Below, one piece after another: positions 2,732-21,383 of a stretch of 33,485 nucleotides of DNA. Numbering within the stretch: position 1 is the stretch's first letter; the number at the start of each line of letters is the position of its first letter. The stretch comes from Nitrospirota bacterium (lineage in GTDB: Bacteria > Nitrospirota > Thermodesulfovibrionia > UBA6902): contig JACRMS010000041.1 of the NCBI GenBank assembly GCA_016214845.1, forward strand, positions 1-33,485. The letters run 5' to 3'. Under the pieces are notes generated by a model. It had not been told where the DNA came from. It saw only the letters and a program-made list of their open reading frames with translations, and ran no database searches. The translations under genes were made by a program, and so were the position numbers.

Positions 2732-3643
2732 CTATTTTAATATCGTAAATATCTGGACCCTGTTGTTGTCCGTGTCCGCTATAAAAAAATCCCCCTGATC
2801 GTTGATGCATATCTGGGACGGGTAATTCAGGAGGCCCTCTTTCCAGCCTCTCTCGGAAAGCTGCCCGAGGTAAGAGCCGTCCTGCCCGACAGCTATGATG
2901 CGGCTTCCATTTCTGTCTGTCAGATAAATACGCCCCCTGTTATCAGTGGCCATGCTGGTGGGAAATCTTATAAATTGTTTCAGGCTTTCAGTCAGAGGAG
3001 AAAAGACCGTGGCATTTTTTGCAGCGGTAAATATCCTGGCATTAACGCCGTCGAGCAATAAGACATTGTCTTTAAAATCAACCGATACGTCCGAGAAGAA
3101 ACCGTAACTTCCGGGGAAAGGGATGAGTTTCTGGAATGTTCCCTCAGGGTTTAACACAAGCACCCGCCTGGAAAATATGTCCAGAATATATATATTGTCG
3201 TTCCTGTCTATGTCAAAACTTCTCGGTACAAATGATTCAGGCGAAGGCAGGCCTGACGGTTCGAGGTAACCTATAAATTTTCCTTCATTGCTCAGGCGCG
3301 CAATGCGGCGGGACCTGCTGTCAAGGGCAAAAACATCTCCCTTGGAATTCAGCCTGACCACTATGGGGTATGACAACTCAGGCACTTTGATTTCAGAGTC
3401 CTGTTTTACGGACTGGTCCTTGTAGGTATACCGCAGCAGTCTCCCGTTTTCCGAGTCGGCAACGATTACCAGCGCCTCTTCGTTGCACGTAACGCCCTCC
3501 GGGTGCCTAAGCCCGGCGCCTTTGCTGTCGGAATAGATCGACTGGACATGCATGATCTTTACTGCCCCCGCGCTGAAAGAATCAGCCGGCAGTAACATGA
3601 TTGCCGCCATTACCATCATTATTTTGATTAAAGCCCCTCTCAT
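2732..3643 (-). CDS. Exported NHL-repeat beta-propeller protein
   Basis: A 303-residue protein with a signal peptide (about 1-23, MRGALIKIMMVMAAIMLLPA...) and repeated blades of about 45 residues with the NHL/6-bladed-propeller signatures HPEGV, NSKGDVFALDSRSRRI, NDNIYILDIFSRRV, NRGRIYLTDRNGSRI and QGDFFIADTDNNRVQI. Such propellers are usually periplasmic or extracellular binding or scaffold modules; no catalytic motif is visible. The chosen ATG is one base past the TAA of the 16-heme gene, with GAGAGGAGA across the junction, so translation is probably coupled. An upstream in-frame extension to 3853 lies inside the cytochrome gene and lacks a signal peptide. It is the last gene of the leftward electron-transfer block. 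A second, distant NHL protein (9889) precedes the OmcS-like cytochrome, so propellers accompany cytochromes on both sides. Confidence 0.85.
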   Translation of the reverse strand: MRGALIKIMMVMAAIMLLPADSFSAGAVKIMHVQSIYSDSKGAGLRHPEGVTCNEEALVIVADSENGRLLRYTYKDQSVKQDSEIKVPELSYPIVVRLNSKGDVFALDSRSRRIARLSNEGKFIGYLEPSGLPSPESFVPRSFDIDRNDNIYILDIFSRRVLVLNPEGTFQKLIPFPGSYGFFSDVSVDFKDNVLLLDGVNARIFTAAKNATVFSPLTESLKQFIRFPTSMATDNRGRIYLTDRNGSRIIAVGQDGSYLGQLSERGWKEGLLNYPSQICINDQGDFFIADTDNNRVQIFTILK

Positions 3644-3644
3644 C

Positions 3645-4964
3645 TTATCTCCTCTCAAGCTCCTTATGGCATTGGATGCAGGTCTCTGTAACGGTCTCAA
3701 ATTGTGACATCGCGGGCTTGTTTCCTGTCCCGCAGGCCCTGTGACAGCTGATGCAATCCACGGACAGGTTTTTGTTCCTCGGGTCAATAATCTTTTCTCC
3801 CACCGGGTGCGTCGAATGGGTCTTCCAGTCGTGGCACTTATTGCATATGTCAAAGCTCATGGACGGTTTTGCGGTAAGTAAAACGTAATCGGAAGAATGC
3901 GGTGAATGACAGCTTACGCAATCCCCCTCTTTTACAGGCTTGCACAATTTCGTGTTCTTTGGATTGTCCTTTGATAAATGCTGAAGCTCCACAGTGTCCG
4001 CATGACACTTGCCGCAGACATCAATGACGGGGCCCGTCAGTAATTTTTTCTGTTTGGCGGCATGAGCATTATGACAGTGCAGGCACGAGTCCCTGTCGAG
4101 GAGGGGCCAGTGCACGCGGTTCTTACTGAATGTCTCGTTGACCATATCGTTGTGACAGTCCCTGCACATTTCGACCCCCTGCTTCTTTGTGGCAAGCGGG
4201 GATTGAGAGCCGGGTTCATTATGGCATTGCGCGCATTTTTTCTCAGCTACCGGCGCGTGCACTTCATCAAACATTATTACCGCCCTGTTCGAGCCGTGTG
4301 AGTCGTGGCAGGAATTGCACCGTGAGCTTGCCACCGGGTAATTCATGTGCTGGCGCGTAAAGGCCGGGTTGTCGGTCTTGTGGCATGTTATGCAGAGTGC
4401 GGGTATCTCGCTTTTCAGAAGTGAAACGAATTGAGCAGAGGCATGAGCGCTGTGGCATGAGAGGCAGTCCTCATCCACTGGCCTGTGCTTAAATCTGACG
4501 CTCTTGATCTTGTCGCTTATATCTTTGTGACAGTCAAAACAAAGCGCGTTGCCCGCCTTAAGGAGCACAGCCTTGTTATTTGAAGAATGAGGGTCATGGC
4601 ACTTTACACAGTTGCCCTCAACAGCCAGCTTGTGTGCGCTGCGTGGGTTGTCCGGAATTACCTTCTTATGGCATTTGTAACAGATCTTGTTGCTGACCGT
4701 ATCTAACAGTTTGCCCTGCTTGGAGGTGTGCGGGTTATGGCATCCCGAGCACTCTCCGATCTTTACAGGTGTATGCACAAAGCGGTCTTTGAGCTTTTCC
4801 TGGAAGTTCTTGTGACAGTTCAGGCAAACAGCTCCCTCTGCGCCCGGTTTGAGCTTGAATCTGTTTTCCGCCGGGTAAACAGATGAAGCAGCGGTGAGAG
4901 TAAATGTTACCAGCACTAAAAGATAGATTTTATATTTCATAAATTTCATAGAGTAAAATTTCAT
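3645..4964 (-). CDS. 16-heme c-type cytochrome, paired-CXXCH family
   Basis: A 439-residue exported cytochrome with 16 CXXCH heme-attachment motifs by direct count, spread from residue 47 to near the C-terminus. Most follow the doubled-CXXCH pattern in which CxxCHNPH or CxxCHDPHSS alternates with LCxxCH, giving many His residues for bis-His ligation. The N-terminus (MKYKIYLLVLVTFTLTAASS...) is a Sec signal with no lipobox, so the protein should be periplasmic or secreted. The start overlaps the stop of the 26-heme gene by ATGA, which favours coupling; in-frame ATGs at 4949 and 4940 are alternatives. Established for the family: such proteins conduct electrons along closely packed hemes. Inferred: with the 26-heme lipoprotein it forms a relay through or at the outer membrane. 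It matches no cytochrome I can name precisely. Confidence 0.93.
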   Translation of the reverse strand: MKFYSMKFMKYKIYLLVLVTFTLTAASSVYPAENRFKLKPGAEGAVCLNCHKNFQEKLKDRFVHTPVKIGECSGCHNPHTSKQGKLLDTVSNKICYKCHKKVIPDNPRSAHKLAVEGNCVKCHDPHSSNNKAVLLKAGNALCFDCHKDISDKIKSVRFKHRPVDEDCLSCHSAHASAQFVSLLKSEIPALCITCHKTDNPAFTRQHMNYPVASSRCNSCHDSHGSNRAVIMFDEVHAPVAEKKCAQCHNEPGSQSPLATKKQGVEMCRDCHNDMVNETFSKNRVHWPLLDRDSCLHCHNAHAAKQKKLLTGPVIDVCGKCHADTVELQHLSKDNPKNTKLCKPVKEGDCVSCHSPHSSDYVLLTAKPSMSFDICNKCHDWKTHSTHPVGEKIIDPRNKNLSVDCISCHRACGTGNKPAMSQFETVTETCIQCHKELERR

Positions 4965-7042
4965 TTTTCAGTTATATGGCAATCCTTGCACGTTCCGGCC
5001 TTAAAAGGGTCATGCACGTCGTCCATGAAAAACTTCGGGCTTTTTGATGTATGCGAGTCATGGCATTTGTTGCAATCCATAATAACGGCGTCAATGCCGA
5101 TGTGGGCCTTGTTAAAAGAATCCGCCTTATAATCATGGCATTCCCCGCAGAGAGACTGAACGGGTTTAACGGCCAGCGCGGGCTCCTCAGACAGATGGGG
5201 TTTGTGGCAACGCTGACAGGTCTGAAGGGTTGACAGGGAGTGAACATAGATCTTCTCGTCACACCACTTGGGTACAACAGCGGTTTCGCCCTCTGTCGCG
5301 GCTGCGGCCTTGGCCTTCTCGCACTCCTCTTTTCTGTTCATCCGCTCTTTAAGGTCCTTATGGCATGTCAGGCATAAGTCAGGAGTGGCTGACAGCAGGA
5401 GGCCTTTTAATTTTGCCTTGTGAGGGTTATGGCATTTTGAGCATTCCCCTGAGGAAAAGGTCGGATGTTCGCTTTTAATTTCCTTTATATCTTTCCTGAG
5501 GCCCGCTTCGTGGCATGAAAAACAGAGCGGCCCCTGGTTTTTTACGATCATCCCGGCAATATTGCTTCCATGAGGGTCATGACATGTAAGGCATTTCCCG
5601 GCTTTAAATACCGGGTGGGTCGAACCGTCCTTGACCTCTTTCATCAATTCGCCGTGGCATGTGACGCACATCTTAGGATCGTCCGGCTCTGTTAATAGGA
5701 GGGCGTTTTTGTCCGAACCGTGTGAAGCGTGGCACGAGGAACAAAAGCCGTCGAGCACAGGTTTATGGGTATTGGTCTTGATAAATTTCACTTCACTGTC
5801 CGGATGACATGTGTAGCAGACCTTGTCCATCCTCTCCCTGAAAATGCCCTTATAATTGGACCCGTGTGGATCATGGCACGTGCTGCACTTTTCTTTTGTA
5901 AATGCCGTATGGCTGACTTTTGCTTTCAGCTCATCCCTGGTTTTCGTATGGCATGAAAAACATAATTCCCTCTCGTCCCCGATAAGGAGTTTCTGGTACT
6001 TTGCGGCATGCTTTGCATGGCACGACAGGCATCCCTTCCCGCTTGCACCGGTTTTATGGGGGAATGAAACCTTTACGGCTTTTTCAGCATGACATGCAAA
6101 ACAGAGGGTGTCACCTTCCCCTGCAAGCAGCGCGGGGTTCTCCGACGAATGTGTATTGTGACAGGGTGCGCACTTTCCTTCCTTAAACGGCGCGTGTTCA
6201 ATATTGCCTCCCTCTTTAAGGTCAGAAGCCTTATGGCATTTGTAGCAGAGGCTGCTGCCTTGCCGGGTTGCCTCAAAGGGCTTTTGTGATGCGGGAGGGT
6301 TGTGGCATTCTTCGCACTTACCCTGAACAACAACGGGATGCGCGCTTGTCCTGAGGAGGGCGGGCTGTAGAGATGAATGAGGATTATGACAGCCTGCGCA
6401 TGAGGAGGTTTCTACGGGATATCCTCCATGGGCCTTCTTAAATACCGGCTTGTCTTTTTCATGACATGAAAGACAGAGTGTCTTCTCCTCTTTGACAAGG
6501 AGGTTCGAATTATCAGAGCTGTGTGAAAAATGGCAGCTCCCGCACCCCTGGTCTTTCAGTATCTTATGAACAACCTTTTTCTCGAAGTTCTCTCTTTTAT
6601 GACACTTATAGCACACCTCGCTGCCTTCAGCGCTCAAAAGGCTGCTGCCCTGTGACGCGTGAGGATTATGGCAGTCAGTGCACTTGCCGTGAGTAAGGGC
6701 CGTGTGGACCTTTGCCTTGTTCATACCTATCTTCTCCTGAGAATGGCATGAATAACAGAGTTCGTTGCCCTGTTTCTTTAAAAGGGTCTTTGGCACTAAG
6801 CCATGCCTGAGGTGGCAATCCTCACACTTTCCCGTTTTGACAACGGTGTGGATATTTTTCATCGTGAGGTACTTGTCCGCAAATTTGGTGTGACAGTCCA
6901 GACATTCTTTACGGCCGGTAGTCCTGCGTTCCGCGGGCGGGGCGCATGAGGACAAATAAATAATGCTTACGCACAAAAAGAGAAGCGCCGAGAGGACGGC
7001 GTATATATGTTTTTTCCGCATTGGCCTTTTTGTTAATGTCAT
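4961..7042 (-). CDS. 26-heme c-type cytochrome lipoprotein
   Basis: A very large multiheme cytochrome: 26 CXXCH motifs by direct count in about 690 residues. A lipoprotein signal peptide (RKKHIYAVLSALLFLCVSII) ends in the lipobox LSSC, so the mature protein should be lipid-anchored, probably at the outer membrane. The body is a tandem array of paired-CXXCH units (CxxCHNPHAS, LCYxCH and similar). A low-complexity EKAKAAAATEGE insert lies near the C-terminal third, before the last four hemes. The longest frame opens with TTG at 7063; ATG at 7042 is used here, and ATG at 7021 would still keep the full signal peptide. It sits between the foldase gene (10-30 bp gap) and the 16-heme gene (ATGA overlap). 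Inferred role: an electron conduit protein comparable to outer-membrane cytochrome lipoproteins of Geobacter, although with more hemes than usual. Confidence 0.93.
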   Translation of the reverse strand: MTLTKRPMRKKHIYAVLSALLFLCVSIIYLSSCAPPAERRTTGRKECLDCHTKFADKYLTMKNIHTVVKTGKCEDCHLRHGLVPKTLLKKQGNELCYSCHSQEKIGMNKAKVHTALTHGKCTDCHNPHASQGSSLLSAEGSEVCYKCHKRENFEKKVVHKILKDQGCGSCHFSHSSDNSNLLVKEEKTLCLSCHEKDKPVFKKAHGGYPVETSSCAGCHNPHSSLQPALLRTSAHPVVVQGKCEECHNPPASQKPFEATRQGSSLCYKCHKASDLKEGGNIEHAPFKEGKCAPCHNTHSSENPALLAGEGDTLCFACHAEKAVKVSFPHKTGASGKGCLSCHAKHAAKYQKLLIGDERELCFSCHTKTRDELKAKVSHTAFTKEKCSTCHDPHGSNYKGIFRERMDKVCYTCHPDSEVKFIKTNTHKPVLDGFCSSCHASHGSDKNALLLTEPDDPKMCVTCHGELMKEVKDGSTHPVFKAGKCLTCHDPHGSNIAGMIVKNQGPLCFSCHEAGLRKDIKEIKSEHPTFSSGECSKCHNPHKAKLKGLLLSATPDLCLTCHKDLKERMNRKEECEKAKAAAATEGETAVVPKWCDEKIYVHSLSTLQTCQRCHKPHLSEEPALAVKPVQSLCGECHDYKADSFNKAHIGIDAVIMDCNKCHDSHTSKSPKFFMDDVHDPFKAGTCKDCHITEK

Positions 7043-7072
7043 ATGTGAGTTTACCGGTTTCAATTTAGTAAG

Positions 7073-8737
7073 TTAGTATTCTTTAGTGTATACCTTTACT
7101 TCATAGACCTCGCGGAGTTTGGCTGCCCAGTCCTCAATGGATTTATTCACCTTGTCCTTGAAAATCTCTTTCGATATAAATTGCCTCGTTTCCTCAAAGG
7201 GCTCCGGTTTTGGAGGAAAGACATCCTGTATATACAAAACATAATAGTACTTCTCCGGGCTGGTGTAAAGCCTTACATCCCCGGACTTGACGCCGGACAA
7301 TGTCTTAAGCACGTCCCCGGTCAGGTCCTTTGTTATTATCACAGTGCCCTCAAACTCCAGCAGCCCCTTGGCGTCCTTGTCCACCTGCCTCTCTGTGTTG
7401 GCGCTGAGCCATTTAAAGTCAGCCCCTTTCTTCAGTGCGTCCAGGGAGTTCTCAGCGTCTTCCTTTTTCAGGAAGACCATGCTGCTGATCCTCATCATTT
7501 CAGGAGAAGAATACTGGTCGATATTTTTTTCATAATATTTTCTCTCTTCAGCTTCGCCCACTTTGATGTCAGGCACAATGACCTTCTTCAAAAAAGAATC
7601 AAAGAGCAGGGAGCTCTCGTATTCCTTGACCATGCTTTTGTAAACGGGAGATTTGTCTATCCCCTGTCTTAACGCTTCCTTAAGCAGCAGCCTTTTCTGC
7701 AGTAACTCGTCGTAGAGCATCAGCCTTTTCTTGTCATTCAGTTTTTTCTTTTTAAGGGCCTTCTCTACCCCGTGGAAATACTTATTCTGCAGGGCTTCCG
7801 TCAGTTCAGCAACTGTGATGGGGGCCTCTCCCTCTATTTCAGCGACCACGCGCGTATCTTTAAGCAGTTTTTCAAATTCCTCTACAGAGGTTTCATAATC
7901 AAGGCCTTCGAGGACCTTCGCGTCTATCTTCGCGTATTTTTTTATCAAAGAGTCTTTCAGCTCTTCAAACGCCTTCTTCCTCTTGTACTCAAGGGCCTGC
8001 TTCCGGGCCTCCTCTTTGGCCGCGAGGTTTTCAGGCACGCGGACATCTTCAAGTTTAAAAATTATAAACCCGTAACTAAGATCGATGGCGGGGCTTATAG
8101 AGCCGATCTCCATCCGGGAGACCTCTTCCATTATCTTCGGCACGAGCTCCTGGCCTTTTATATATTCTCCCTCCCCTCTTCCTTTTGCGGTATTGTCAGC
8201 TATGGTCCTTTTCACTATTTCATCGAAATTACCATTTGCCTTTATCTCTTCCTCTGCCTTTTTTGCCGCGTCTGCTTTATCAAACAGGATGGATTTCAAT
8301 TTAAATTCCCTGACAGCCTCTTTATAGAGCCTGTCGACCTCTTCATCATCAGCGGTCATCCCCCTGATATACAGTCCCTTCACAAGCCCGGTGAGAGTCT
8401 GCCGGGAGTTCTGCTCCATCATTTCTTTTACATCCGGCAGTTCGTTAAGCCCGATATTTGTTGCCTCCTGCCCTATGAGCCTCATGGTGATCATCCGGTC
8501 CAGTATTCCTTTATAATCTATCCTGCTTACCTGTGTTCCTTCCTTCGCTTCTGATTGCCCGGAATGAATGGAGGAAAGCATTTTATCGAATTCCCTGACG
8601 GTGATAGGATCATTATTGACCGTCGCCATTACTTCTTCCCCGTCAATTACAGGCAGTTTCTGATCGGCAGGAAATCCAGAAGACGCGGACAGGAACAGCA
8701 TTGAAATAACAAATAATAGAGAAAGAGATTTATTCAT
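7073..8737 (-). CDS. Periplasmic SurA/parvulin-type peptidyl-prolyl isomerase
   Basis: A 554-residue exported foldase. After a signal peptide (1-24) come a SurA-N-like helical region (about 34-140, starting VMATVNNDPITVREFDKML), a parvulin-like domain (about 145-235, with FKLKSILFDKADAAKKAEE and SPAIDLSYGFIIFKLED), a second helical region containing another APITVAELTEAL segment, and a second parvulin-like domain (about 412-520). The family folds outer-membrane and exported proteins. Whether both isomerase domains keep catalytic residues cannot be settled by eye. It directly precedes the 26-heme cytochrome, which suggests a dedicated chaperone for apocytochrome or barrel folding. The ATG is preceded by GGAG five bases upstream. 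A 135-bp gap without a clear terminator separates it from the PilZ regulator gene upstream, so read-through from that promoter is likely. Confidence 0.85.
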   Translation of the reverse strand: MNKSLSLLFVISMLFLSASSGFPADQKLPVIDGEEVMATVNNDPITVREFDKMLSSIHSGQSEAKEGTQVSRIDYKGILDRMITMRLIGQEATNIGLNELPDVKEMMEQNSRQTLTGLVKGLYIRGMTADDEEVDRLYKEAVREFKLKSILFDKADAAKKAEEEIKANGNFDEIVKRTIADNTAKGRGEGEYIKGQELVPKIMEEVSRMEIGSISPAIDLSYGFIIFKLEDVRVPENLAAKEEARKQALEYKRKKAFEELKDSLIKKYAKIDAKVLEGLDYETSVEEFEKLLKDTRVVAEIEGEAPITVAELTEALQNKYFHGVEKALKKKKLNDKKRLMLYDELLQKRLLLKEALRQGIDKSPVYKSMVKEYESSLLFDSFLKKVIVPDIKVGEAEERKYYEKNIDQYSSPEMMRISSMVFLKKEDAENSLDALKKGADFKWLSANTERQVDKDAKGLLEFEGTVIITKDLTGDVLKTLSGVKSGDVRLYTSPEKYYYVLYIQDVFPPKPEPFEETRQFISKEIFKDKVNKSIEDWAAKLREVYEVKVYTKEY

Positions 8738-8872: not shown

Positions 8873-9550
8873 TTAAATGAATTGGACCCCCGCCCTGTAA
8901 TCACCATTTTCCTTAACGCTCCATTTAACAATGCCTGATTTGCTCCCCAATACGTCATCGAACCTGAGAAGGTCCCCGAAGAATACGGGACTGCCGGTCC
9001 TTAAGCCGGCGCCTCCCAGACTGATGTCTATGATATCACCCTGTAGCGTAGTTTTCAAATCCGAATCGTAAGAGACATAAATGGAATAATGGACGGTCCT
9101 TCTATACTGGGACCTTGGAAATTTTCTTTTCTCATTATTAAAATCGGTCCCGTCATTTTCTTCAGCATGGTGGAAATCTTCATCCGACAGTTCGTGATTA
9201 ACAAACGCCTTGACTATGTCGAGCTCAATCGGTTTTGGAATAAAAAGAGACGCGTTGCCCGCGATTTTCTTCATCACATCATCATCTAAATATTCCGCGG
9301 TCATGACCACGACCTTTGTCTTGGGAGATGTCATGCGTATCCTCTCCATGATTTCCATCCCGCTTATGTCCGGCAGGTTCAGGTCGAGAAAGCAGATGTC
9401 ATATTGATTTGAATTTATAGAATCGATTGCCTTCTTGCCGGTTTCGGCGATTGTTATCTCTCCTTTAAAAGCGCAGCTTACATTAAGGGCCTTTGACATC
9501 CCGTAGAGAATTGCAGACTGGTCATCAACTATCAGGATTTTTTTAACCAT
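8873..9550 (-). CDS. Response regulator with receiver and PilZ (c-di-GMP binding) domains
   Basis: 225 residues. Residues 1-120 are a receiver: the acidic pair in VDDQ, phospho-acceptor Asp in CFLDLNLPD, the conserved Thr in VVMTAE and the Lys in FIPKPIE are all present. Residues 137-225 resemble PilZ: an arginine-rich start (RKFPRSQYRR), then DISLGGAGL, which fits the D/NxSxxG part of the c-di-GMP site. It should link phosphorelay input to c-di-GMP binding with no DNA-binding domain. A sigma-54-like promoter (9591-9605) lies just upstream, facing away from the OmcS-side promoter. It is the first gene of the leftward block of foldase, two cytochromes and NHL protein. A GEMM-type riboswitch on the other arm gives a second c-di-GMP link. 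The cognate kinase is not adjacent. Confidence 0.88.
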   Translation of the reverse strand: MVKKILIVDDQSAILYGMSKALNVSCAFKGEITIAETGKKAIDSINSNQYDICFLDLNLPDISGMEIMERIRMTSPKTKVVVMTAEYLDDDVMKKIAGNASLFIPKPIELDIVKAFVNHELSDEDFHHAEENDGTDFNNEKRKFPRSQYRRTVHYSIYVSYDSDLKTTLQGDIIDISLGGAGLRTGSPVFFGDLLRFDDVLGSKSGIVKWSVKENGDYRAGVQFI

Positions 9551-9590
9551 TTTTCTCTTTCAACAAAAAAACTTTCATGGACCCAATAAA

Positions 9591-9605
9591 GCAAATATTG
9601 TACCA
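9591..9605 (-). promoter_or_regulatory. Sigma-54-like promoter, leftward (PilZ-regulator/cytochrome block)
   Basis: The minus strand reads TGGTACAATATTTGC: -24 TGG(T)AC, five bases, -12 TTGC. One consensus base differs (T for C after GG). It is 41 bp before the ATG at 9550. The dyad pair begins 99 bp upstream. Confidence 0.55.
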
Positions 9606-9703
9606 AAAGGCGCAAGGCTAATTCGTCTCCTTTGAAATCGTTGTTTTAAGAATGGCAGACGACGTGCTGTTGATAAATGAGATAAAGCAACCAAAGCCTG
9701 AAT

Positions 9704-9741
9704 CTGGTCAAAAGACCATACCGGCATGGTGGTAAGACCGG
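9704..9741. promoter_or_regulatory. Paired TGGT-N6-ACC dyads between divergent promoters
   Basis: CTGGTCAAAAGACCAT (9704-9719) and ATGGTGGTAAGACCGG (9726-9741) repeat the motif found at 429-465 and 2527-2563, with the same 6-bp centre and 22-bp spacing. The second unit is especially close to CTGGTGGTTTGACCG at 451-465. The central position suggests that one bound activator serves both promoters. Confidence 0.68.
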
Positions 9742-9840
9742 ACAGTTGATGACAGCCAAAACAGGAAATCAATCCTGCTTCTTAATATAACCTCCAGTTT
9801 TTTAAATGGTTCTTCCATGACAGTTATGATGAATTTTTTC

Positions 9841-9856
9841 TGGCACAAGCCTTGCT
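9841..9856 (+). promoter_or_regulatory. Sigma-54 promoter, rightward (NHL/OmcS-like block)
   Basis: TGGCACAAGCCTTGCT is a full consensus -24/-12 element (TGGCAC, five bases, TTGCT). Transcription should begin near 9867-9868, about 20 bases before the ATG at 9889. This also shows that the longer reading frame opening at 9817 is not the true start. Confidence 0.82.
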
Positions 9857-9888
9857 CTTATCATTACAGAATGAGAGGAAATGAGACC

Positions 9889-10860
9889 ATGAAAGGTAAC
9901 GCGATACAAAGCAGACACAGGTTCTCAGTTGCTCTCTTATTAGCGGCCTTTGTCCTTCTGATGAGCGCCGAGTATGCGGCAGCAAAGGTCAACGGGGCAA
10001 TTTATATGTATAACCTCTCGGATTTTACCGGCGTCATCCCTTATAACTGGTCTGCTCTGTCAGTTGATAAAGAGAGAAATGAGATATATGTCATCTACAA
10101 AAACGAAGTTGAGGTCTTTAATGAAAAGGGAATGAAGATCTACAGTTTCGGAGATGACGAAAATCTCAGGGGAGTTATAGCTGATGTTACAGTCGGCAGG
10201 GACGGGACGATCTTTCTGCTTCTGTCTGAAGGAGACATCTATTCCGTTGTGCGCTGCAATTACAGGGGAGAACCCGTGGCCCCAATAGATTTCAGGAATT
10301 TCCCCGGCCAGTTCTCAAAGTTCCTTCCCGGACGCATCATTTACAGGAACGGGGACCTTTACCTGGCAGACCTCGTGTTCTCAAAGAAGGTTGTCATCAC
10401 TGATTCAGACGGCGTTTATAAGGACGGCTATGAACTGGATTCCATCCTTGCCCTCAAAGACATTGAAGGGAAGCCCGGCCAGGAAAAAGAGATTGCCGGT
10501 TTCAGCCTTGACAGAGACGGGAACATGCTTTTTACGGTCCCCACAATTTTCAAGGCATTCAAGGTGTCCTCTGACCGCAAGGTGCAAATGTTCGGCGAAG
10601 CCGGGAACATCCCCGGCAAGTTCTCCGTTGTTGCAGGCATCACGTCGGATGATGCGGGGAACTACTATGTTACAGACACATTAAAGAGTGTGGTCATGGT
10701 TTATGACAGGGACTTTAATTTTATTTTTGAATTCGGCTACCGCGGCGATCAGCCGGGTAATTTGATTGCCCCGAGAAATATGGTTGTTAATGACGGCTAC
10801 TTATACGTTTCTCAATCAAGGAAAAGGGGAGTCAGTGTTTACAGAATTCTTCAGGATTGA
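9889..10860 (+). CDS. Exported NHL-type beta-propeller protein
   Basis: 323 residues from the ATG at 9889. This start has AGAGG ten bases upstream and lies just after the sigma-54 promoter. The signal peptide is MKGNAIQSRHRFSVALLLAAF...YAAA-K. The rest shows propeller blades with recurring phrases: GRDGTIFLLLSEGDIYSVVR, YRNGDLYLADLVFSKKVV, DRDGNMLFTVPTIFKAFKV, DDAGNYYVTDTLKSVVMVYD and NDGYLYVSQSRKRGVSVYRI. No heme motif or enzyme signature is visible. It is followed 227 bp later by the riboswitch-controlled OmcS-like gene. Association with the nanowire cytochrome, as scaffold, assembly or secretion factor, is inferred from position and from the second NHL gene in the opposite cytochrome block. 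The two NHL proteins are only distantly alike. Confidence 0.83.
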   Translation: MKGNAIQSRHRFSVALLLAAFVLLMSAEYAAAKVNGAIYMYNLSDFTGVIPYNWSALSVDKERNEIYVIYKNEVEVFNEKGMKIYSFGDDENLRGVIADVTVGRDGTIFLLLSEGDIYSVVRCNYRGEPVAPIDFRNFPGQFSKFLPGRIIYRNGDLYLADLVFSKKVVITDSDGVYKDGYELDSILALKDIEGKPGQEKEIAGFSLDRDGNMLFTVPTIFKAFKVSSDRKVQMFGEAGNIPGKFSVVAGITSDDAGNYYVTDTLKSVVMVYDRDFNFIFEFGYRGDQPGNLIAPRNMVVNDGYLYVSQSRKRGVSVYRILQD

Positions 10861-10978: not shown

Positions 10979-11081
10979 ATCCTCCGCAACAAGGTAAACC
11001 CATCGCAAGGTGGGGACACAAAGCTGACAGGTCCCGGACAGGGACGGCTGGGCTGCCGGAGAAAAAAAACAATTGGAGGAT
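10979..11081 (+). promoter_or_regulatory. GEMM-I cyclic-dinucleotide riboswitch before the OmcS-like gene
   Basis: The leader contains AACAAGGTAAACCCATCGC, a GNRA-type GCAA loop closed by CCATC/GGTGG, then GGGGACACAAAGCTGACAGG and finally GACGGCTGGGCTGCCGG. Order and conserved blocks match the GEMM-I aptamer (AGGGCAAACC, P2 with GNRA loop, GGGACGCAAAGCC, GGTAGCCGGGTTGCC). Aligned without gaps to the Vibrio Vc2 aptamer, the base at position 20 is G, as in c-di-GMP binders, and the intercalating A47 is present. CTCCG (10982-10986) can pair with CGGAG (11057-11061) to close the aptamer. The overlapping ATCCTCC (10979-10985) is fully complementary to GGAGGAT (11075-11081), the ribosome-binding site. 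Ligand binding would therefore be expected to free the ribosome site (ON switch). A GCCGGC-TTTT-GCCGGC hairpin (10956-10971) precedes it. Confidence 0.8.
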
Positions 11082-11087
11082 AAAAAG

Positions 11088-12335
11088 ATGAAAGGATTAA
11101 AAATAGTTTTCGTTGTACTGGCTGCCGCCTTAATAGCTTTAGGCGCTGCAACCGCATATGCCTTCCACTCAGGCGGTGTTGCCGAGTGCATGGGCTGCCA
11201 CAACATTCATGACGCAAAAAGCACAAGCGCACTTTTGGCAGGAACTGACATTAGTTCGACCTGTGTAAATTGCCACGGCGCATCAGGCGCAAGCAGCTAT
11301 CACATAGTTACCCCTGACGCGGACATGCCGGCAGGCACACCTCCCGGAAACAGGACCCCTGGCGGAGACTTCGGATGGCTGAAAAAAACTTACACATACA
11401 GCCCGAGGGCCGGAAGCAACGTTGTTGATGCAGGCGACAGGCACGGGCACAACATCGTAGCAATAGACTTTACTTATAATGCTGACGCGACCAACCTGAC
11501 AGCGCCGGGTGGAGACATGGACGCTACACAGCTTTCCTGTAACAGCTGCCATGACAACCACGGCAAATTAAGAAGGCTTTCCGACGGGACCCTTGCTACA
11601 ACAGGCGCCCCGATCATCGGATCAGGCTCTTATGACACCAGCGTTGTTCCGCTTGCGGGACAGGCAGTAGGCGCTTACCGCCTTCTTCGCGGACCCGGTT
11701 CTACTGCCGGATCAGGCGGCAAGACTTTCACCGCAGTTTTTAACGCGGTAGTTCCAAGCACATATAACAGATCAGAAGCGGTTACCCCTACCCGTGTAGC
11801 CTATGGCGCGGGAATATCCGACTGGTGCGCAACATGCCATCCGGACATGCATTCAGGGACAAGTTCACTGATGACCCACCCGGTAAATCAGCCGATCGGC
11901 GTAGACGTTGCAGCCAACTATAACGCATATGTAGGCAGCGGTAACATGACAGGAAACTCAAACACATCATTCGACTCAATCGTTCCATTCCAGATGGACA
12001 ACACAACTGATTTTGCAACACTCAAAGCAAAAGCAGTCAATAACGGCAGTGTAGCTACAGGACCTGCGTCGAGTGACAGAGTTATGTGTCTCAGCTGCCA
12101 CAGAGCTCATGCAACAGGATGGGAATACATGACCAGATGGAACGCCACTGGAAACGAGTTCATCGCGGTTGAAGGCGTATGGCCGGGGACCGATTCACCT
12201 GTTGTTGCGGCCCAGGCGGCAAAATATTCACAGGGCCGTACAGTAGCAGAGACAACAAAGGCATACAATGACACAGCGATGCATTACGGCAGTTACCAGA
12301 GATCGCTCTGCAATAAATGCCACGCACAAGACTAA
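11088..12335 (+). CDS. omcS: OmcS-like hexaheme nanowire cytochrome
   Basis: 415 residues with six CXXCH motifs at 34-38, 59-63, 151-155, 247-251, 334-338 and 408-412. After the signal peptide (cleavage at TAYA-F25) the mature protein starts FHSGGVAECMGCH, very close to Geobacter OmcS (FHSGGVAECEGCH). Further shared stretches, recalled from OmcS, include SSYHI, ADMPAGT, TPGGDFGW, KKTYT, GHNIVA, STYNR(S/T)EA, TRVAYG, CLSCHRAHA and the C-terminus LCNKCHA-D. OmcS polymerises into extracellular heme filaments that carry electrons to minerals or partner cells; the close match over the full length supports the same role. ATG 11088 has GGAGGA seven bases upstream; the TTG at 11073 lies inside that site and is rejected. 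The gene is headed by the riboswitch and closed by a terminator at 12376. Its outward path probably uses the large cytochromes and barrel encoded nearby. Confidence 0.93.
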   Translation: MKGLKIVFVVLAAALIALGAATAYAFHSGGVAECMGCHNIHDAKSTSALLAGTDISSTCVNCHGASGASSYHIVTPDADMPAGTPPGNRTPGGDFGWLKKTYTYSPRAGSNVVDAGDRHGHNIVAIDFTYNADATNLTAPGGDMDATQLSCNSCHDNHGKLRRLSDGTLATTGAPIIGSGSYDTSVVPLAGQAVGAYRLLRGPGSTAGSGGKTFTAVFNAVVPSTYNRSEAVTPTRVAYGAGISDWCATCHPDMHSGTSSLMTHPVNQPIGVDVAANYNAYVGSGNMTGNSNTSFDSIVPFQMDNTTDFATLKAKAVNNGSVATGPASSDRVMCLSCHRAHATGWEYMTRWNATGNEFIAVEGVWPGTDSPVVAAQAAKYSQGRTVAETTKAYNDTAMHYGSYQRSLCNKCHAQD

Positions 12336-12375
12336 ACTGTTCAGTGGAGGTTTGACCGCCTCTGCTCAATATTTA

Positions 12376-12404
12376 AAGGGCCGGCAGAAGCCGGCCCTTT
12401 TTTT
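12376..12404 (+). terminator. Intrinsic terminator after the OmcS-like gene
   Basis: AAGGGCCGGC (12376-12385), a four-base AGAA loop and GCCGGCCCTT (12390-12399), running into a seven-T tract. It closes the NHL/OmcS-like unit and separates it from the propeller lipoprotein gene. Confidence 0.92.
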
Positions 12405-12434: not shown

Positions 12435-12459
12435 TTAATTTAAGAATTTCTTGGGAATT

Positions 12460-13974
12460 ATGGTCCGGGACATAAGAATATTTTCTTCATTGCCTGTAAA
12501 TGGGCAACTAAAGCCGCCCGATACCTTGGCCCCCGCGTTTTCCTGCCATTCAGGCAGATACCATTTGCAGGGGCTGATGATCGTTCTCGTCTTTTCATTA
12601 TTTCTTTCAGGCTGCCAGTTCAAGTCTGGCCTTTTAAAAACTGCTGACGAAGACAGAAAGGAAAGAGGCGAAGTCCTTCTTTACACGCAGCCATTTCCGC
12701 AGGAGTCAGACAGGCTCAGGTTCAACATCGAAGAGATCTCAGCCGTGAGAGATGACGCCATGGTATTCCCCCTGTCTCCGGTGTTAAGCGAAATAAAATG
12801 CCGTGATATGAAAAGCCAGAGACTGTTGGCCACAGGCTGGCTGCCCCCCGGCCACTATACGGAGGTTTTATTCAAGGTAAAAAATGCATCCCTGGAAGTT
12901 GAGGACGGGGAGGCAAACCTCCTGGTGCCTGCCGGACCGGTAACAGCACCGTTTATGTTTGATGTCGGGAGAGAGATGTCATATGTCTTTTCCCTTGTAT
13001 TCAACTATACACAATCCATCAAGGGGATGTTGAGCTTCAGCCCTTCGTTCTCTGTGTTCTTTCCTGAGAGACCGGTCGTCAACCTGTTAGGGTACGTATC
13101 AAATTCTGAATCAGACACTATCACGGTAATTGATAAAAAGGCGATGCAGGTAATAAATGTTATAGCAACCGGGAAAGGCCCACGAGGGATAGCCATAGAT
13201 CAAGTCCGTAAAAGGGCGTATGTGGCGCTTTCGGGTGACGACTCCATTGACGTCATTGATATCACAGCAGGCAGGAAAATTAACACCATCCGCCTTAACC
13301 CCGGGGACAAACCACAGGAGTCCGCTCTAACGCCGGCCGGGACCCTGCTGATAACGGCAAACACAGGTTCGGACAGTATAAGTTTGATAGACCCGCTGGC
13401 CTTTATCGAATTAGACAGGATCGCTGTCGGCAACAGCCCCCATTCAATCGCAATTGACCCGGCGGGAAGGAGGGCGTATGTCTTTAATTCGCTTTCCAGC
13501 ACGATATCCGTCATAGACCTTGCGAGCAGCTCCGTTGCGGCCACGATATCAACTGAACCGGGGCCGCTGCGGGGACAGTTTAACAGGGAAGGGAACAAAC
13601 TCTATGTCATCCATGAGTGGTCGTCATACATGACAGTGATAGACCCGTTCACTCTTTCAGCGCTTGGCAGGGTCCGCATCGGGATGGGAGCGAACGCGCT
13701 TAAGCTTGATACAAGGACAAACTTAATATACGTGGCCAGGAAAAACGATATAATGGTTGAAGTTTATGATCCTTTTTCCGCTATTCCCATTGATTACATA
13801 AAAGCGGAGGGAAGCGCATCATACATCACCATTGACAGCGAGGAAAACAACCTGTATCTGATCGTGCCGGAGATGAAAACCGTGCTTGTTGTCGATATCG
13901 TCAGTAAAAAGATCGTCTCTAAAATAGATATCGGCAAAAGCCCCGCCTGGGTAACCATGATGGGGGAAAGGTAA
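12460..13974 (+). CDS. YVTN/YncE-type beta-propeller lipoprotein
   Basis: 504 residues from ATG 12460. A hydrophobic stretch ends in a lipobox, MIVLVFSLFLSGC, so a lipid anchor is predicted. The segment before it is about 38 residues, unusually long, and the true start may be nearer 12577. Residues after the Cys to about 205 form an N-terminal domain resembling DUF4382 (LRFNIEEISAVRDDAMVFPL, LATGWLPPGHYTEVLFKV). A propeller follows with YVTN-type repeats: VSNSESDTITVIDKKAMQVI, VALSGDDSIDVIDITAGRKI, ITANTGSDSISLIDPLAFIE and AYVFNSLSSTISVIDLASSS. It should be anchored in an outer or inner membrane leaflet, facing the periplasm or the outside. It sits between the OmcS-like gene and the barrel gene. 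The function is unknown; a scaffold role for electron-transfer parts is a guess. Confidence 0.82.
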   Translation: MVRDIRIFSSLPVNGQLKPPDTLAPAFSCHSGRYHLQGLMIVLVFSLFLSGCQFKSGLLKTADEDRKERGEVLLYTQPFPQESDRLRFNIEEISAVRDDAMVFPLSPVLSEIKCRDMKSQRLLATGWLPPGHYTEVLFKVKNASLEVEDGEANLLVPAGPVTAPFMFDVGREMSYVFSLVFNYTQSIKGMLSFSPSFSVFFPERPVVNLLGYVSNSESDTITVIDKKAMQVINVIATGKGPRGIAIDQVRKRAYVALSGDDSIDVIDITAGRKINTIRLNPGDKPQESALTPAGTLLITANTGSDSISLIDPLAFIELDRIAVGNSPHSIAIDPAGRRAYVFNSLSSTISVIDLASSSVAATISTEPGPLRGQFNREGNKLYVIHEWSSYMTVIDPFTLSALGRVRIGMGANALKLDTRTNLIYVARKNDIMVEVYDPFSAIPIDYIKAEGSASYITIDSEENNLYLIVPEMKTVLVVDIVSKKIVSKIDIGKSPAWVTMMGER

Positions 13975-14088: not shown

Positions 14089-16326
14089 ATGAATAACAGC
14101 GGAAAACATCAGTCATTGTTGTCTCTCAAGCGCTCCAGAGGCATTATTTTTTTTTTACTGTCCCTTCTCTCATTGAATCATTTGTTGCTGCCCCGGGCTG
14201 CGTCTGCCGAGGGGTTGGGCGGTTACCTTGAGTTCAATTACAGTGACTCCGCTACAAAGACAGAGGACCAGACAGGAGAGACCACGAAAATAAAATCCGG
14301 CACGTTCAATCAGATCTACAACCTTTCCTTTCAGAAGACAATCTATCCGAACATCTTTCTGAACACAGGCGGCATCTTCAGCCAGGACACAACGCGTTCA
14401 GATACGGACGGGGACATTACAACGTCTTCGATCACTAACATGAGGCCCTTTGTTGACCTTACACTGAGAAACCAGACATTCCTCATCGGCGGGAGGTACA
14501 ACATAAGAGAGGAAAAAACAACAGGCACTGACCTGCGCGCGATAACAAACGTTAATGAAAATTATGATGCGATCTTCGGCTGGGACCCTGAGGGACTGCC
14601 ATCCATTGATTTACGTTATGAAAGGTCAAACCTCTATGACAGGGACCGGCTCAGCAGGGACACCGTAACCGACTTTGTCTCCATGACTGCCAGGTATATG
14701 CCGGAATACGGCCCACTTCAGGGACTCGACATACAATACCAGCCCTCATACAGGAAGTTACAGGACAAACTGGATGACATTGTTACCACAACCCTGTCAC
14801 AAAACGGGAGGGTGACTTATTCCGATACTTTTTTTAACAGAAGGGTCTCCTTATTTACAAGCTATAACGTTGCCCATACCGAAACAGAGGTCACCACTTC
14901 GACCCAGACAGGTGAAGTAAGCACCCAGTTGTTTCCTTTCTCAGGGCTTTCCGCAATTGACGACACTCCCTCCTCAGATGCCCTGTCGCTGAATTCGGCC
15001 CTCATAGACGGCAACCTGACACAAAACGCGGGCATTAATATCGGGGTCCCCCCTTTCAGCGGCAATACTGATCAAAGAAATATCGGCCTTGACTTCGCTG
15101 CCGCTACAGAGGTCAACAACATTTTCATATGGGTTGACAGGGAGCTGCCCGCCGCGATCGCCAATGCTTTCAAATGGGACGTTTATACAAGCCCGGACAA
15201 CCGGACCTGGACCTTTCTCGCAACCATTCCCGCTGCGTCTTTCGGGCCTTTTCAAAACCGCTTTGACATTAACTTTTCAAATGTCACGACGAGATACATA
15301 AAAGTTGTTACTATTCCCCTGACGACTGCCGATACAATCGGCGTGACTGGAGATTTTTCCGATATTTTAGTCACCGAGATACAGGCGTTTCTCAAAACGC
15401 CTGCCGGGACATCAGGAAAGCACGTGAAAGATTCAAGGACAAACAGCATCTATAACCTTGACGTAAGGACGAGGATCCTGGATGTGCCGATTCTTTATTA
15501 TGAATTCTCGTACTTTTTTACAAAGGCCGCTTCAGTCCCCTCTGATTTCACGCTTTCCAACGGCTTTTCCCTGACTCACAGTTTCAGCAGTGTCATTTCA
15601 ACTCAGGCGAGGGTCGCAAGAGAAGATGTTGTTCAGAATAAAGAGAACGGGGTAAATTATTTGTACAACGCATCGGTGACTGCCCGCCCCTTAAAGACAC
15701 TTACCCACACGCTGAACTACAGCGGAATAAGCGAAGAGCTGGGAGGGGAAAAGAGCACTACAAATTCCGTTTTCCTCAATAACATCGCGGAACTTTATAA
15801 GGGTTTAAACGTTAACCTCAACGGCGGGGCAAGCCTTGAAACAAAAGACACCGGGGAGAAGACAACCAACACTATTTACAGTGTCGGCTCCGGTATTGTC
15901 CCGCACAGAAGAGTTACCATCGACCTTTATTACTCAAGCGCGGACACGAAACAGACAGGCGCCGGCCAGGAGGATTCCACTGATGTTACCAAAAGAGGAA
16001 CGTTCAGCGTCTCCTATAAACCTTTTGATACCGTATATCTCTTTGTCTCATTCGAAACGATCAAAACCTCAGACAAGACGAGTGATCTGCAGAACTACGG
16101 GGTCAACTGGGCCCCGTTCCCTGACGGCTCTCTCCAGTGCGCGTTCTCTTATAACGAAAGCCTTACGTCCGACGGAGACAAGATCAGGCTGATAAACCCG
16201 AACATAAGATGGAACATAAGCAGTAAAACCTTTCTGGACCTCTCGACACAGTTTCTTAAAAGTGAAGCTGTGACCCAAAAATCCGACAGCGTTGTATCAA
16301 GCGCCACGTTCAGGACGGTGTTCTGA
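14089..16326 (+). CDS. Outer-membrane beta-barrel protein with discoidin-like insert
   Basis: 745 residues with an N-terminal signal (hydrophobic run, then PRAASA-E). Most of the body is alternating polar/aromatic beta strands typical of an outer-membrane barrel (GGYLEFNYSDSATK, FVDLTLRNQTFLIGGRYNIR, RVSLFTSYNVAHTETEV, FSVSYKPFDTVYLFVSFET), and the chain ends in Phe (FRTVF), the usual barrel C-terminal signal. About residues 290-435 interrupt the barrel with a galactose-binding/F5-8C-like fold (FIWVDRELP, FKWDVYTSPDNRTWTFLA, ITTRYIKV-type strand, TEIQAFL). It is not recognisably MtrB/PioB and has no heme motif. Inferred role: the porin part of a porin-cytochrome conduit, or a surface-binding barrel, based on its cytochrome neighbours. 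The start has only a weak ribosome site, and a repeat and unremarkable sequence fill the 114-bp gap before it. Confidence 0.8.
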   Translation: MNNSGKHQSLLSLKRSRGIIFFLLSLLSLNHLLLPRAASAEGLGGYLEFNYSDSATKTEDQTGETTKIKSGTFNQIYNLSFQKTIYPNIFLNTGGIFSQDTTRSDTDGDITTSSITNMRPFVDLTLRNQTFLIGGRYNIREEKTTGTDLRAITNVNENYDAIFGWDPEGLPSIDLRYERSNLYDRDRLSRDTVTDFVSMTARYMPEYGPLQGLDIQYQPSYRKLQDKLDDIVTTTLSQNGRVTYSDTFFNRRVSLFTSYNVAHTETEVTTSTQTGEVSTQLFPFSGLSAIDDTPSSDALSLNSALIDGNLTQNAGINIGVPPFSGNTDQRNIGLDFAAATEVNNIFIWVDRELPAAIANAFKWDVYTSPDNRTWTFLATIPAASFGPFQNRFDINFSNVTTRYIKVVTIPLTTADTIGVTGDFSDILVTEIQAFLKTPAGTSGKHVKDSRTNSIYNLDVRTRILDVPILYYEFSYFFTKAASVPSDFTLSNGFSLTHSFSSVISTQARVAREDVVQNKENGVNYLYNASVTARPLKTLTHTLNYSGISEELGGEKSTTNSVFLNNIAELYKGLNVNLNGGASLETKDTGEKTTNTIYSVGSGIVPHRRVTIDLYYSSADTKQTGAGQEDSTDVTKRGTFSVSYKPFDTVYLFVSFETIKTSDKTSDLQNYGVNWAPFPDGSLQCAFSYNESLTSDGDKIRLINPNIRWNISSKTFLDLSTQFLKSEAVTQKSDSVVSSATFRTVF

Positions 16327-16383: not shown

Positions 16384-16974
16384 ATGAAAATGAGGAGCAT
16401 CATCGCAGTTCGAGGGAAGATTCTGATGATTTTAATGGCCGCATTTCTGGTCTCATGCGCCTCCGCCAAACCGGCTGATATTTACTTTGATCAGAACATG
16501 GATATAAGTGCGATAAAGACCGCTGCGATCATGCCTTTTGAAAACCTCACAAGAGATCAAATGGCAGCGGACAGGGTAAAAGACGTCTTCACCAACATGC
16601 TCTTGTCCACCGGTGAAATTTATGTGGTACCGCCCGGGGAGGTCAAACGCGGCGCCGTATTGATAGGCATTGCCAATCCAACGACCCCGTCCAAAGAGGA
16701 GATCGTAAAACTGGCCTCCCTCATAAAAGTAGACGTGGTAATTACCGGGGTGGTGAGGGAGTACGGGGAGGTGCGGTCAGGGACAACCTCAGCCAATATT
16801 GTTTCCATAAGCCTGCAAATGATAGAGGGACAGTCCGGCAAGATCGTATGGACGGCAACCTCTACAAAGGGCGGCATAAGCATGAAAGACCGGCTTTTGG
16901 GCGGCGGCGGCAGGCCGATGAACGACGTAACGGAAGAGGCTGTAAATGATATCCTTAATAAATTTTTCCGGTAG
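16384..16974 (+). CDS. GNA1162/CsgG-like outer-membrane lipoprotein
   Basis: 196 residues. The lipobox is FLVSC (Cys near residue 25), following MKMRSIIAVRGKILMILMAA. The body has the pattern of CsgG/TolB-N-related small lipoproteins (GNA1162/DUF799 or LpoB-like): IKTAAIMPFENLTRDQMAADRV, EIYVVPPGEV, VDVVITGVVREYGEV and SGKIVWTATSTKGG. The family includes outer-membrane secretion or assembly partners and cell-wall synthase activators; the exact member is uncertain. AGGAGG eight bases before the ATG gives a strong start. It follows the barrel gene by 57 bp and precedes a large protein whose C-terminus repeats this fold twice, so the two probably work together. A role in secretion or assembly of surface polymers is inference. 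Confidence 0.75.
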   Translation: MKMRSIIAVRGKILMILMAAFLVSCASAKPADIYFDQNMDISAIKTAAIMPFENLTRDQMAADRVKDVFTNMLLSTGEIYVVPPGEVKRGAVLIGIANPTTPSKEEIVKLASLIKVDVVITGVVREYGEVRSGTTSANIVSISLQMIEGQSGKIVWTATSTKGGISMKDRLLGGGGRPMNDVTEEAVNDILNKFFR

Positions 16975-19994: not shown

Positions 19995-21383
19995 TTACGC
20001 TATGCCGTATTTCTTTAAATGCGACCTGAAGGCGTCGTAGGTCATATTCAGGAGTTTTGCTGCCTGCGCTTTATTATTGCCTGACTTTTCGAGAGCCTGC
20101 ATGATGAGGTCTTTCTCAAGATCGTCAATGGACAACCCCGATTCGGGGAGAGTAAATTTCCCGCCGGCGGGCTGTTCCTGAAACTTTGCCGGACCGGTTA
20201 TCCAGTGCGGCAGATGTTCGGGCAATATCAGGTCAATATTTTCCAGCACCACAAAACGTTCAAAGAGGTTCTTCAGCTCCCTCACATTTCCCGTCCAGCT
20301 GTAAGAAAGAAGCAGCTTCTCAGCTTCGGGTGAGATCTCTATGGTTTTCTTCTTATTATATTTCCTTGCAAAGAGCGACAGGAAATGTCTGGCAAGCAGC
20401 GGTATGTCTTCCCGTCTCTCCCTTAGCGGCACGATATGCACATAGAAGGTGCTGAGCCTGAAGAACAGGTCTTTCCTGAATTCGCCTTTCTCAACCGCCT
20501 CCTGCAGGTTCTTGTTGGTTGTGGCCAGGACGGTCACATCAATGGGGATGTCCCTGTCTCCGCCGATGCGCCTTATCATCCTCTCCTCAAGCACCCTCAG
20601 CAGTTTGCTCTGGAGTTCAAATTTCATGTCTCCTATTTCATCAAGCAGGATAGAGCCTCCTTTTGCCATCTCAAACAGTCCCTTCCTGTCGGCCTTCGCG
20701 TCCGTAAAGGCGCCTTTTTCATAGCCGAAGAGCTCGCTCTCAAGAATGGATTCCGGAAGGGCGGCGCAATTGATCCAGATAAACGGCGCATGTTTTGAGT
20801 CGGTGTCCCTGTACATCAAATGATGGATGTTCCTTGCGACGATCTCCTTGCCGGTCCCGCTCTCCCCGGTGATGAGGATCGTGGAAACGCGCGCCTGCGC
20901 CATCTTTTCCATTTTTGAATATAATGTTTTTATCGCAGAGGATTCCCCGATGAAGTCCCTCTCGAAGGTCTCGGAATAGACCTTCCTCAGGTAAGCCACT
21001 TCCTGCTTAAGGTTTTCCTTTTCAAGGGTGTTGCTAATAACGATCTTGACTTCGTCTATATCAAAAGGCTTTGTAAGATAATCCACCGCCCCGAGCTTCA
21101 TGGCCTTTACGGCTGTTTCCGCTGTATCGTCCGCGGTGAGCATTATGACCTCTGTGACCAGCCCCTCTTTCTTGATGTCCTGAAGTATCTCGATGCCGCT
21201 TCTTTCAGGAAGCCTGATATCCAGGAGCACGACGTCGGGGGCCCACGACCTTATCTTTTTGATTATGTCTTCGGTCCTGTTTTCAGTGCGCACTTCGTAG
21301 CCTTCCTTCTTCAGCACCTTGTTAAGCATCGAGAGAATAAGCTCATCGTCGTCCAGAATAAATACCTTTCCTTTAGCGCTCAT
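19995..21383 (-). CDS. NtrC-family sigma-54-dependent response regulator
   Basis: 462 residues in the classic order: receiver 1-120 (DDD at 11-13, phospho-acceptor Asp55 in LLDIRLPE, Lys in TKPFD), AAA+ domain about 143-370 with Walker A GESGTGKE (173-180) and the sigma-54 contact loop GAFTDA (224-229), and a Fis-type helix-turn-helix at the C-terminus (NNKAQAAKLLNMTYDAFRSHL). The loop has D where the consensus GAFTGA has the second G. The protein should bind upstream DNA and activate sigma-54 promoters when phosphorylated. Its start overlaps the kinase gene by 11 bp, marking the kinase as partner. Its own targets are unknown; the paired dyads near sigma-54 promoters elsewhere in this window are candidates, although the activator could equally be encoded elsewhere. 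Confidence 0.95.
   Translation of the reverse strand: MSAKGKVFILDDDELILSMLNKVLKKEGYEVRTENRTEDIIKKIRSWAPDVVLLDIRLPERSGIEILQDIKKEGLVTEVIMLTADDTAETAVKAMKLGAVDYLTKPFDIDEVKIVISNTLEKENLKQEVAYLRKVYSETFERDFIGESSAIKTLYSKMEKMAQARVSTILITGESGTGKEIVARNIHHLMYRDTDSKHAPFIWINCAALPESILESELFGYEKGAFTDAKADRKGLFEMAKGGSILLDEIGDMKFELQSKLLRVLEERMIRRIGGDRDIPIDVTVLATTNKNLQEAVEKGEFRKDLFFRLSTFYVHIVPLRERREDIPLLARHFLSLFARKYNKKKTIEISPEAEKLLLSYSWTGNVRELKNLFERFVVLENIDLILPEHLPHWITGPAKFQEQPAGGKFTLPESGLSIDDLEKDLIMQALEKSGNNKAQAAKLLNMTYDAFRSHLKKYGIA

Follow-up and report, generated by a model that had tools for sequence, protein, structure and literature searches.

Divergent sigma-54 promoters around a conserved pair of dyads at a split OmcS cluster in Nitrospirota, and a candidate activator for both operons

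The window analysed here, a 33,485-nucleotide stretch that is one whole contig of a 3.45 Mb Nitrospirota genome in 41 contigs, contains an OmcS-type nanowire gene cluster split into two divergent operons. Each operon has its own sigma-54 promoter, and between the two promoters lies a pair of tandem dyads that is conserved in relatives together with the promoters. An NtrC-family response regulator (EBP) encoded in the same window at 19995-21383 is linked to such dyads in other genomes and co-occurs with them.

We propose that 9551-9888 is a divergent sigma-54 control region in which the two tandem dyads form one enhancer. A linked kinase would phosphorylate the EBP, which would then bind the dyads, oligomerise and, by DNA looping, contact sigma-54 RNA polymerase at both flanking promoters. 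The left operon (REC-PilZ/foldase/26-heme/16-heme/NHL) and the right NHL/OmcS operon would both be brought up and together make the OmcS-type nanowire machinery, with the barrel and lipoprotein genes further right reached by read-through or from later promoters. The EBP would also bind at a second and a third paired-dyad site, each preceding a surface-protein gene, making a small local regulon. The input would be the ligand of a PhnD-like protein, the redox state of a kinase heme c, or both. Taken as a whole, the proposal of an EBP-bound shared enhancer driving both operons and a small regulon is in our judgement very probable. A preliminary description had arrived at its central part, one activator switching on both gene sets; the present comparisons support that reading, strengthen it through conservation and extend it to a putative regulon with a candidate regulator.

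The divergent promoters and the central dyads

The control region lies between the REC-PilZ gene (minus strand) and an NHL-like gene (plus strand), and contains four elements.

9590-9605, minus: sigma-54 promoter TGGTACAATATTTGCT of the REC-PilZ/foldase/cytochrome operon, exact TGGYACN5TTGCW
9705-9718: dyad 1, TGGTCAAAAGACCA, perfect 5-bp palindrome arms, TGGT/ACC columns conserved
9727-9740: dyad 2, TGGTGGTAAGACCG, imperfect, 22 bp after dyad 1
9841-9856, plus: sigma-54 promoter TGGCACAAGCCTTGCT of the NHL/OmcS operon, exact TGGYACN5TTGCW

The promoters face apart, as first described, and are exact consensus matches at 9841-9856 (plus) and 9605-9590 (minus). Both are TGGCACN5TTGCW-like, with GG at -24, GC at -12 and the 10-bp spacing, and they are the only TGGYAC-N5-TTGCW sites in the window, even when one mismatch is allowed. 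The looser pattern TGGYAYN5TTGCW returned 37 sites genome-wide versus 4 for the reversed-pattern control, so most of these sites are not due to chance. The genome encodes rpoN (Sigma54_DBD, E=8.9e-61, contig 39). The right-hand gene most likely starts at 9889, downstream of the promoter and behind the RBS-like GAGAGGAAATGAG; the mechanical ORF start at 9817 would place the promoter within the gene. The predicted transcription starts imply leaders of about 22 nt on the right and about 29 nt on the left.

The dyads, of the type TGGT-N6-ACCA, had been placed at 9704-9741; they are real, and the range was too wide by one base on each side (9705-9740). The gaps given for them, 99 bp to the left and 100 bp to the right, hold when measured to the promoter 16-mers, and from the centre of the pair, 9722.5, it is approximately 119-120 bp to the -24 GG in either central promoter. 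Equal 99/100-bp spacing was rejected as a functional rule because distances in the relatives differ; it is peculiar to the window species. Also rejected, as too common, was the single dyad as a signal. It is the paired form, not the lone dyad, that is specific: perfect matches to CTGGT-N6-ACCA-N8-TGGT occur three times in the 3.45-Mb genome, all on this contig (429, 2527 and 9704) and within 10 kb. The 22-bp register is common to the pairs at 430/452 and 2528/2550 and to those of relatives.

The closest named relatives are genomes of Nitrospirota/Thermodesulfovibrionia that derive from groundwater and deep mines (SURF_23, SURF_66, DeMMO3_26 and others), and REC-PilZ orthologues were located in 61 relatives. 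Among 17 REC-PilZ intergenic regions, which share descent and are not independent trials, a left-facing sigma-54 site was found in 15, a right-facing one in 15 and a dyad pair (up to 3/16 mismatches, 21-24-bp register) in 15, with site thresholds partly set after the first loci had been seen; dinucleotide-shuffle expectations were 0.10, 0.09 and 0.09, respectively. Both promoters and the dyad pair stand in the right order in 13/17, window included. The expectation for all three was 0.0, and the full architecture appeared in none of 300 shuffles per region. One or more elements are missing in four loci (G003, G007, G008 and G018). The preliminary description had proposed to check whether relatives with the divergent genes also retain the dyads, and the dyads are conserved in them. 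In a five-species alignment, invariant columns cluster on the -12/-24 of the left promoter, the two dyads and the -24/-12 of the right promoter; the GCAA..T....TACCA columns on the left are invariant, and the right promoter is conserved. The window has a partial IHF motif, AATCAA, at about 9768, and no conserved IHF column block was seen in this alignment.

When 230 genomes of the class were scanned for a perfect dyad 62-92 bp from a sigma-54 site, 11 matches were returned, and none with the reversed pattern. Nine belong to this locus family (G002, G004, G005, G009, G026, G036, G044, G050 and G204) and lie in loci carrying this EBP or on contigs of genomes that carry it; in G204 the EBP, REC-PilZ, NHL and OmcS genes are all together. 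The match in G012 adjoins an unrelated gene, and that in G079 looks like chance. The window was not matched because its spacing is 100 bp. In G036, OmcS is duplicated in tandem (L127, 6613-9262).

These data bear on two other readings. The first, that the sigma-54-like and dyad sequences are functionless products of chance, could draw on the fact that single TGGT-N6-ACC is only mildly enriched in the window (8 versus 3.4 expected); conservation and the controls effectively refute it, and we give it next to no weight. The second makes the dyads the operator of a repressor or other non-EBP regulator, with the sigma-54 sites activated from elsewhere. Short palindromes are typical of repressors too, but a position 60-125 bp upstream of -24 is typical for EBP sites and unusual for a repressor, and tandem dyads with a linked EBP fit activation. 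We regard this second reading as very improbable.

The split OmcS cluster and further paired dyads

The genes on either side of the control region are as follows.

8873-9550, minus: REC-PilZ protein, left operon gene 1 (Pfam Response_reg and PilZ)
7073-8737, minus: PpiC/SurA-type peptidyl-prolyl isomerase, probable OscH-like foldase (Pfam)
4961-7063, minus: 26-heme cytochrome (26 CXXCH motifs; Paired_CXXCH)
3645-4964, minus: 16-heme cytochrome (16 CXXCH motifs; Paired_CXXCH)
2732-3739, minus: NHL-repeat protein, left operon end, start codon approximate (Pfam NHL)
9889-10860, plus: NHL-like beta-propeller, right operon gene 1 (weak NCBIfam ScyF NHL match)
11073-12335, plus: OmcS-family six-heme nanowire cytochrome (PDB 6ef8 OmcS, E=5.3e-101, residues 31-420)
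12375-12400, plus: terminator-like hairpin after OmcS, perfect 11-bp stem and T run (sequence)
12451-13974, plus: YncE/YVTN beta-propeller protein (domain search)
14089-16326, plus: probable outer-membrane beta-barrel, inferred; syntenic in OmcS clusters across phyla
16384-16974, plus: LpoB/GNA1162-like lipoprotein (domain search)
17057-19870, plus: Y_Y_Y / Ig-like repeat protein (domain search)

By its gene content this set is an OmcS/osc nanowire cluster, and filament formation is predicted. The OmcS protein has six CXXCH motifs, is 73-81% identical to its relatives and probably starts at 11088. Synteny in other phyla gives it companion genes, namely prolyl isomerase, porin, propellers and multiheme cytochromes; the foldase is retained in OmcS clusters there, and the NHL-like propeller adjoins OmcS there too. 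The companions correspond to the osc (omcS-companion) genes of the 2025 osc paper, as cited in PMC13194489. The right-hand set had been given as NHL/OmcS; both genes belong to it, and it extends further, past the strong hairpin, to the propeller, porin-like, lipoprotein and Y_Y_Y genes. The hairpin suggests partial termination, and the barrel and later genes may therefore be expressed at a lower level or use other promoters. The Y_Y_Y/Ig-like protein consists of repeats of approximately 93 aa, and the DNA motif TGGTCTGATGAATA recurs every 279-282 bp. The REC-PilZ protein has a c-di-GMP-binding motif, RxxxR...DxSxxG, retained in most orthologues, which may tie the switch to c-di-GMP.

Homologues of the right-hand NHL gene were collected from 35 loci in several phyla, and 18 have a sigma-54 site at the expected upstream place (0.14 expected from mononucleotide shuffling); the site is present in 10 of the 11 loci with an EBP orthologue in reach. 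It is also seen in OmcS clusters of other Nitrospirota, Desulfocapsa and other lineages (L168, L171, L174, L175, L176, L179 and L184), several of which are adjoined by an orthologous EBP and a heme-type kinase and have more degenerate dyads.

In other phyla the companion genes are colinear behind a single NHL-side promoter. In the window lineage the OmcS set is split into two divergent operons, and a shared central enhancer would therefore hold the halves together. There could, however, be one enhancer without simultaneous switching, serving one promoter at a time or mainly the OmcS side, with the REC-PilZ promoter dependent on other conditions or sites. The colinear osc arrangement of other phyla is in keeping with this, as are the distances in relatives: that from the dyads to the NHL/cytochrome-side promoter changes little (64-101 bp), whereas that to the REC-PilZ promoter varies widely, up to several hundred bp (G042). 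Against it, the surroundings of the REC-PilZ promoter yielded no further dyad pair; this promoter, like any sigma-54 promoter, needs an activator to initiate, and enhancer distances vary. We consider such non-simultaneous switching unlikely, though it is the most serious of the alternatives, and joint activation of both operons from the central dyads remains the preferred reading.

Regulation may reach beyond the two operons, as the remaining two paired-dyad matches in the genome also lie upstream of genes in the window.

430-465: second paired-dyad site, upstream of the MopE-motif gene, conserved in G001
330-345, minus: probable sigma-54 promoter TGGCATACTCATTGCG of the MopE-motif gene (GCAATGAGTATGCCA identical in G001)
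3-248, minus: MopE-motif gene, cut by the contig end
2528-2563: third paired-dyad site, second dyad degenerate, upstream of 756-2282, conserved in G001
2426-2441, minus: weak sigma-54-like element TAGCATACACTTTGCT (G001 has TAGCATGCGCTTTGCT at the equivalent place)
756-2282, minus: secreted collagen-like/DUF4215/pentapeptide protein (domain search)

At both sites a sigma-54-like element lies about 104 bp from the pair centre. That at 330-345 is good; that at 2426-2441 is weak, its -24 GG reading AG in the window and G001 alike. The preliminary description had confined the regulated set to the two central operons; these stand, and at least two paired-dyad sites (430-465 and 2528-2563) have to be added. 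The product of 3-248 is secreted, with a MopE-type Cu-binding motif, and is apparently under the same dyad control as the nanowire operons.

The candidate activator and its sensor partners

A regulator operon at 19995-24506 encodes a binding protein, a kinase and a sigma-54 regulator, in an order kept in relatives.

19995-21383, minus: NtrC-family response regulator, predicted dyad-binding activator (PF00072, PF00158, PF02954)
21373-23592, minus: sensor histidine kinase with helical periplasmic domain and CxxCHH (motif invariant in orthologues)
23592-24506, minus: PhnD-like periplasmic binding protein, regulator operon gene 1 (Pfam Phosphonate-bd)

The EBP has REC, sigma-54-interacting AAA+ and Fis-type HTH domains. 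Its sigma-54 contact loop, canonically GAFTGA, reads GAFTDA, as in nearly all orthologues, with no variation at G, F, T or the final A and a fifth residue that departs from the canonical G. Orthologues are present in 18 of the 61 genomes, with 57-83% identity, clearly apart from paralogues at 49% or less, and many share contigs with dyads. Dyad pairs with at most one mismatch occur in 13 genomes, 11 of which have an EBP orthologue, versus 18/61 overall (Fisher p=4.5e-6).

A second group of relatives (G002, G004, G005, G009 and probably G042) has the EBP, kinase, REC-PilZ gene and dyads next to a different operon, in which the gene for a 4-heme cytochrome is joined by that for a large protein. 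In the loci tested, this large protein resembles ArrA and is a molybdopterin oxidoreductase, with a score under the ArrA equivalog cut-off. In L131, L136 and L142 (G002, G004 and G009), the ArrA-like operon stands in place of the OmcS cluster. As the EBP and dyads adjoin either an OmcS or an ArrA-like operon, regulator and sites stay together while targets change. Between the two groups the dyads diverge chiefly at position 5, with TGGTC accompanying an RSHLKK recognition helix versus TGGTG with RYQIKK. This covariation is suggestive only; it was set aside as proof, since it possibly reflects a single ancestral event and since G001 was pooled with class A despite having the other helix type.

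The dyads could be an enhancer for both promoters to which another EBP binds, the linked one regulating something else. In favour of this, the genome encodes about 21 full EBPs, a dyad was not detected at the operon that encodes the linked EBP, and G012 and G031 have dyad pairs and no detected orthologue, both genomes being incomplete. This has to be set against a distinct subfamily linked to the dyads in many genomes and target contexts, the co-occurrence given above and the difference in dyad bases between recognition-helix types, though that may be a single ancestral split. We therefore think another EBP improbable, and the linked EBP at 19995-21383 the likely activator of the dyads.

The kinase residues C89, C92, H93 and H94 are invariant in 18 orthologues, from which heme c binding is predicted and hence a possible redox input, making 21373-23592 a candidate c-heme sensor kinase. 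The model of its periplasmic part is a helical bundle, the distal turn of which carries CxxCHH. No Pfam sensor family matched this domain above cut-off, and the fold search returned no match below E 0.001; the closest folds are four-helix-bundle sensors (4k0d, NarQ), the best being 4k0d with a TM score of 0.83 by target length.

The PDB relatives of the PhnD-like protein are PtxB, ArrX and AioX, with PtxB/phosphonate binders nearest. An AioX/ArrX identity was rejected because the arsenic Cys is absent by indirect alignment: FGSFTY aligns with FGPLSY of PDB 5jvb, AioX Cys106 has been equated with PhnD Gly65 (PMC5908839), and none of 13 PhnD-like orthologues has a Cys at that place.

Comparison with known systems

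The pairing of divergent sigma-54 operons with EBP palindromes has precedents. In Escherichia coli, the divergent sigma-54 operons hyc and hyp share an intergenic enhancer through which FhlA activates them; activator class, ligand and targets differ from those proposed here. In Desulfovibrio vulgaris, the divergent sigma-54 operons orp1 and orp2 are activated by the EBP DVU2106, with palindromes between the promoters (PMC3897727). The window likewise has two divergent sigma-54 operons, a candidate EBP encoded in the cluster and palindromes between the promoters. However, the orp palindromes are reported at separate positions for each promoter whereas here there is one central block in a fixed 22-bp register, orp needs IHF sites in the reporter host whereas no conserved IHF site was seen here, and the targets here are a cytochrome-nanowire cluster.

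The regulator operon resembles AioXSR and ArrXSR (PMC6011840, PMC5908839), in which a sigma-54 response regulator and a histidine kinase likewise accompany a periplasmic binding protein of the PhnD family. AioR reportedly acts upstream of the RpoN promoter that serves an operon for a respiratory enzyme (PMC6011840, PMC5908839), and class-B relatives of the window system flank an ArrA-like enzyme. Unlike those systems, the kinase here has an invariant periplasmic CxxCHH and the predicted target is a nanowire cluster; the binding protein, unlike AioX, has its closest relatives among PtxB-type phosphite/phosphonate binders, with Gly placed at Cys106 by alignment.

It is possible, though we would not quite call it probable, that a portable switch of PhnD-like protein, heme c kinase and sigma-54 activator, with its own dyad code, controls extracellular-respiration modules of Nitrospirota (OmcS or ArrA-like), nanowires tracking periplasm redox. 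If so, its targets would differ between lineages, some placing a split divergent OmcS cluster under it and others an operon for an ArrA-like molybdoenzyme. The dyad code also predicts further respiratory operons under the same switch. The decision to build nanowires is poorly understood, even in Geobacter. For a deep-subsurface lineage this locus offers a testable answer, consisting of a DNA motif, two promoters, a regulator-kinase pair and a probable heme sensor, and the same promoter logic can be traced in OmcS operons of other phyla.

Literature searches of partial coverage yielded no account of OmcS clusters under sigma-54 control in Nitrospirota, and omcS goes unmentioned in the main text of the paper on the Geobacter RpoN regulon. 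The Geobacter sulfurreducens OmcS/osc operon is adjoined by GSU2506 (sigma-54 regulator) and GSU2507 (kinase) (PMC13194489, PMC10599522). The window shares with it OmcS, foldase, porin, propeller and multiheme companions and the adjoining sigma-54 regulator and kinase. A strong sigma-54 site upstream of the NHL gene was not found in the Geobacter-type loci examined. GSU2507 is annotated Cache_1/HAMP whereas the window kinase has a CxxCHH domain, and gene order in Geobacter is colinear whereas here there are two divergent operons, one headed by REC-PilZ. Three features of this locus appear to be new: a divergent arrangement that serves a nanowire cluster split in two, the code of paired dyads, and an X-S-R system in a heme-kinase version.
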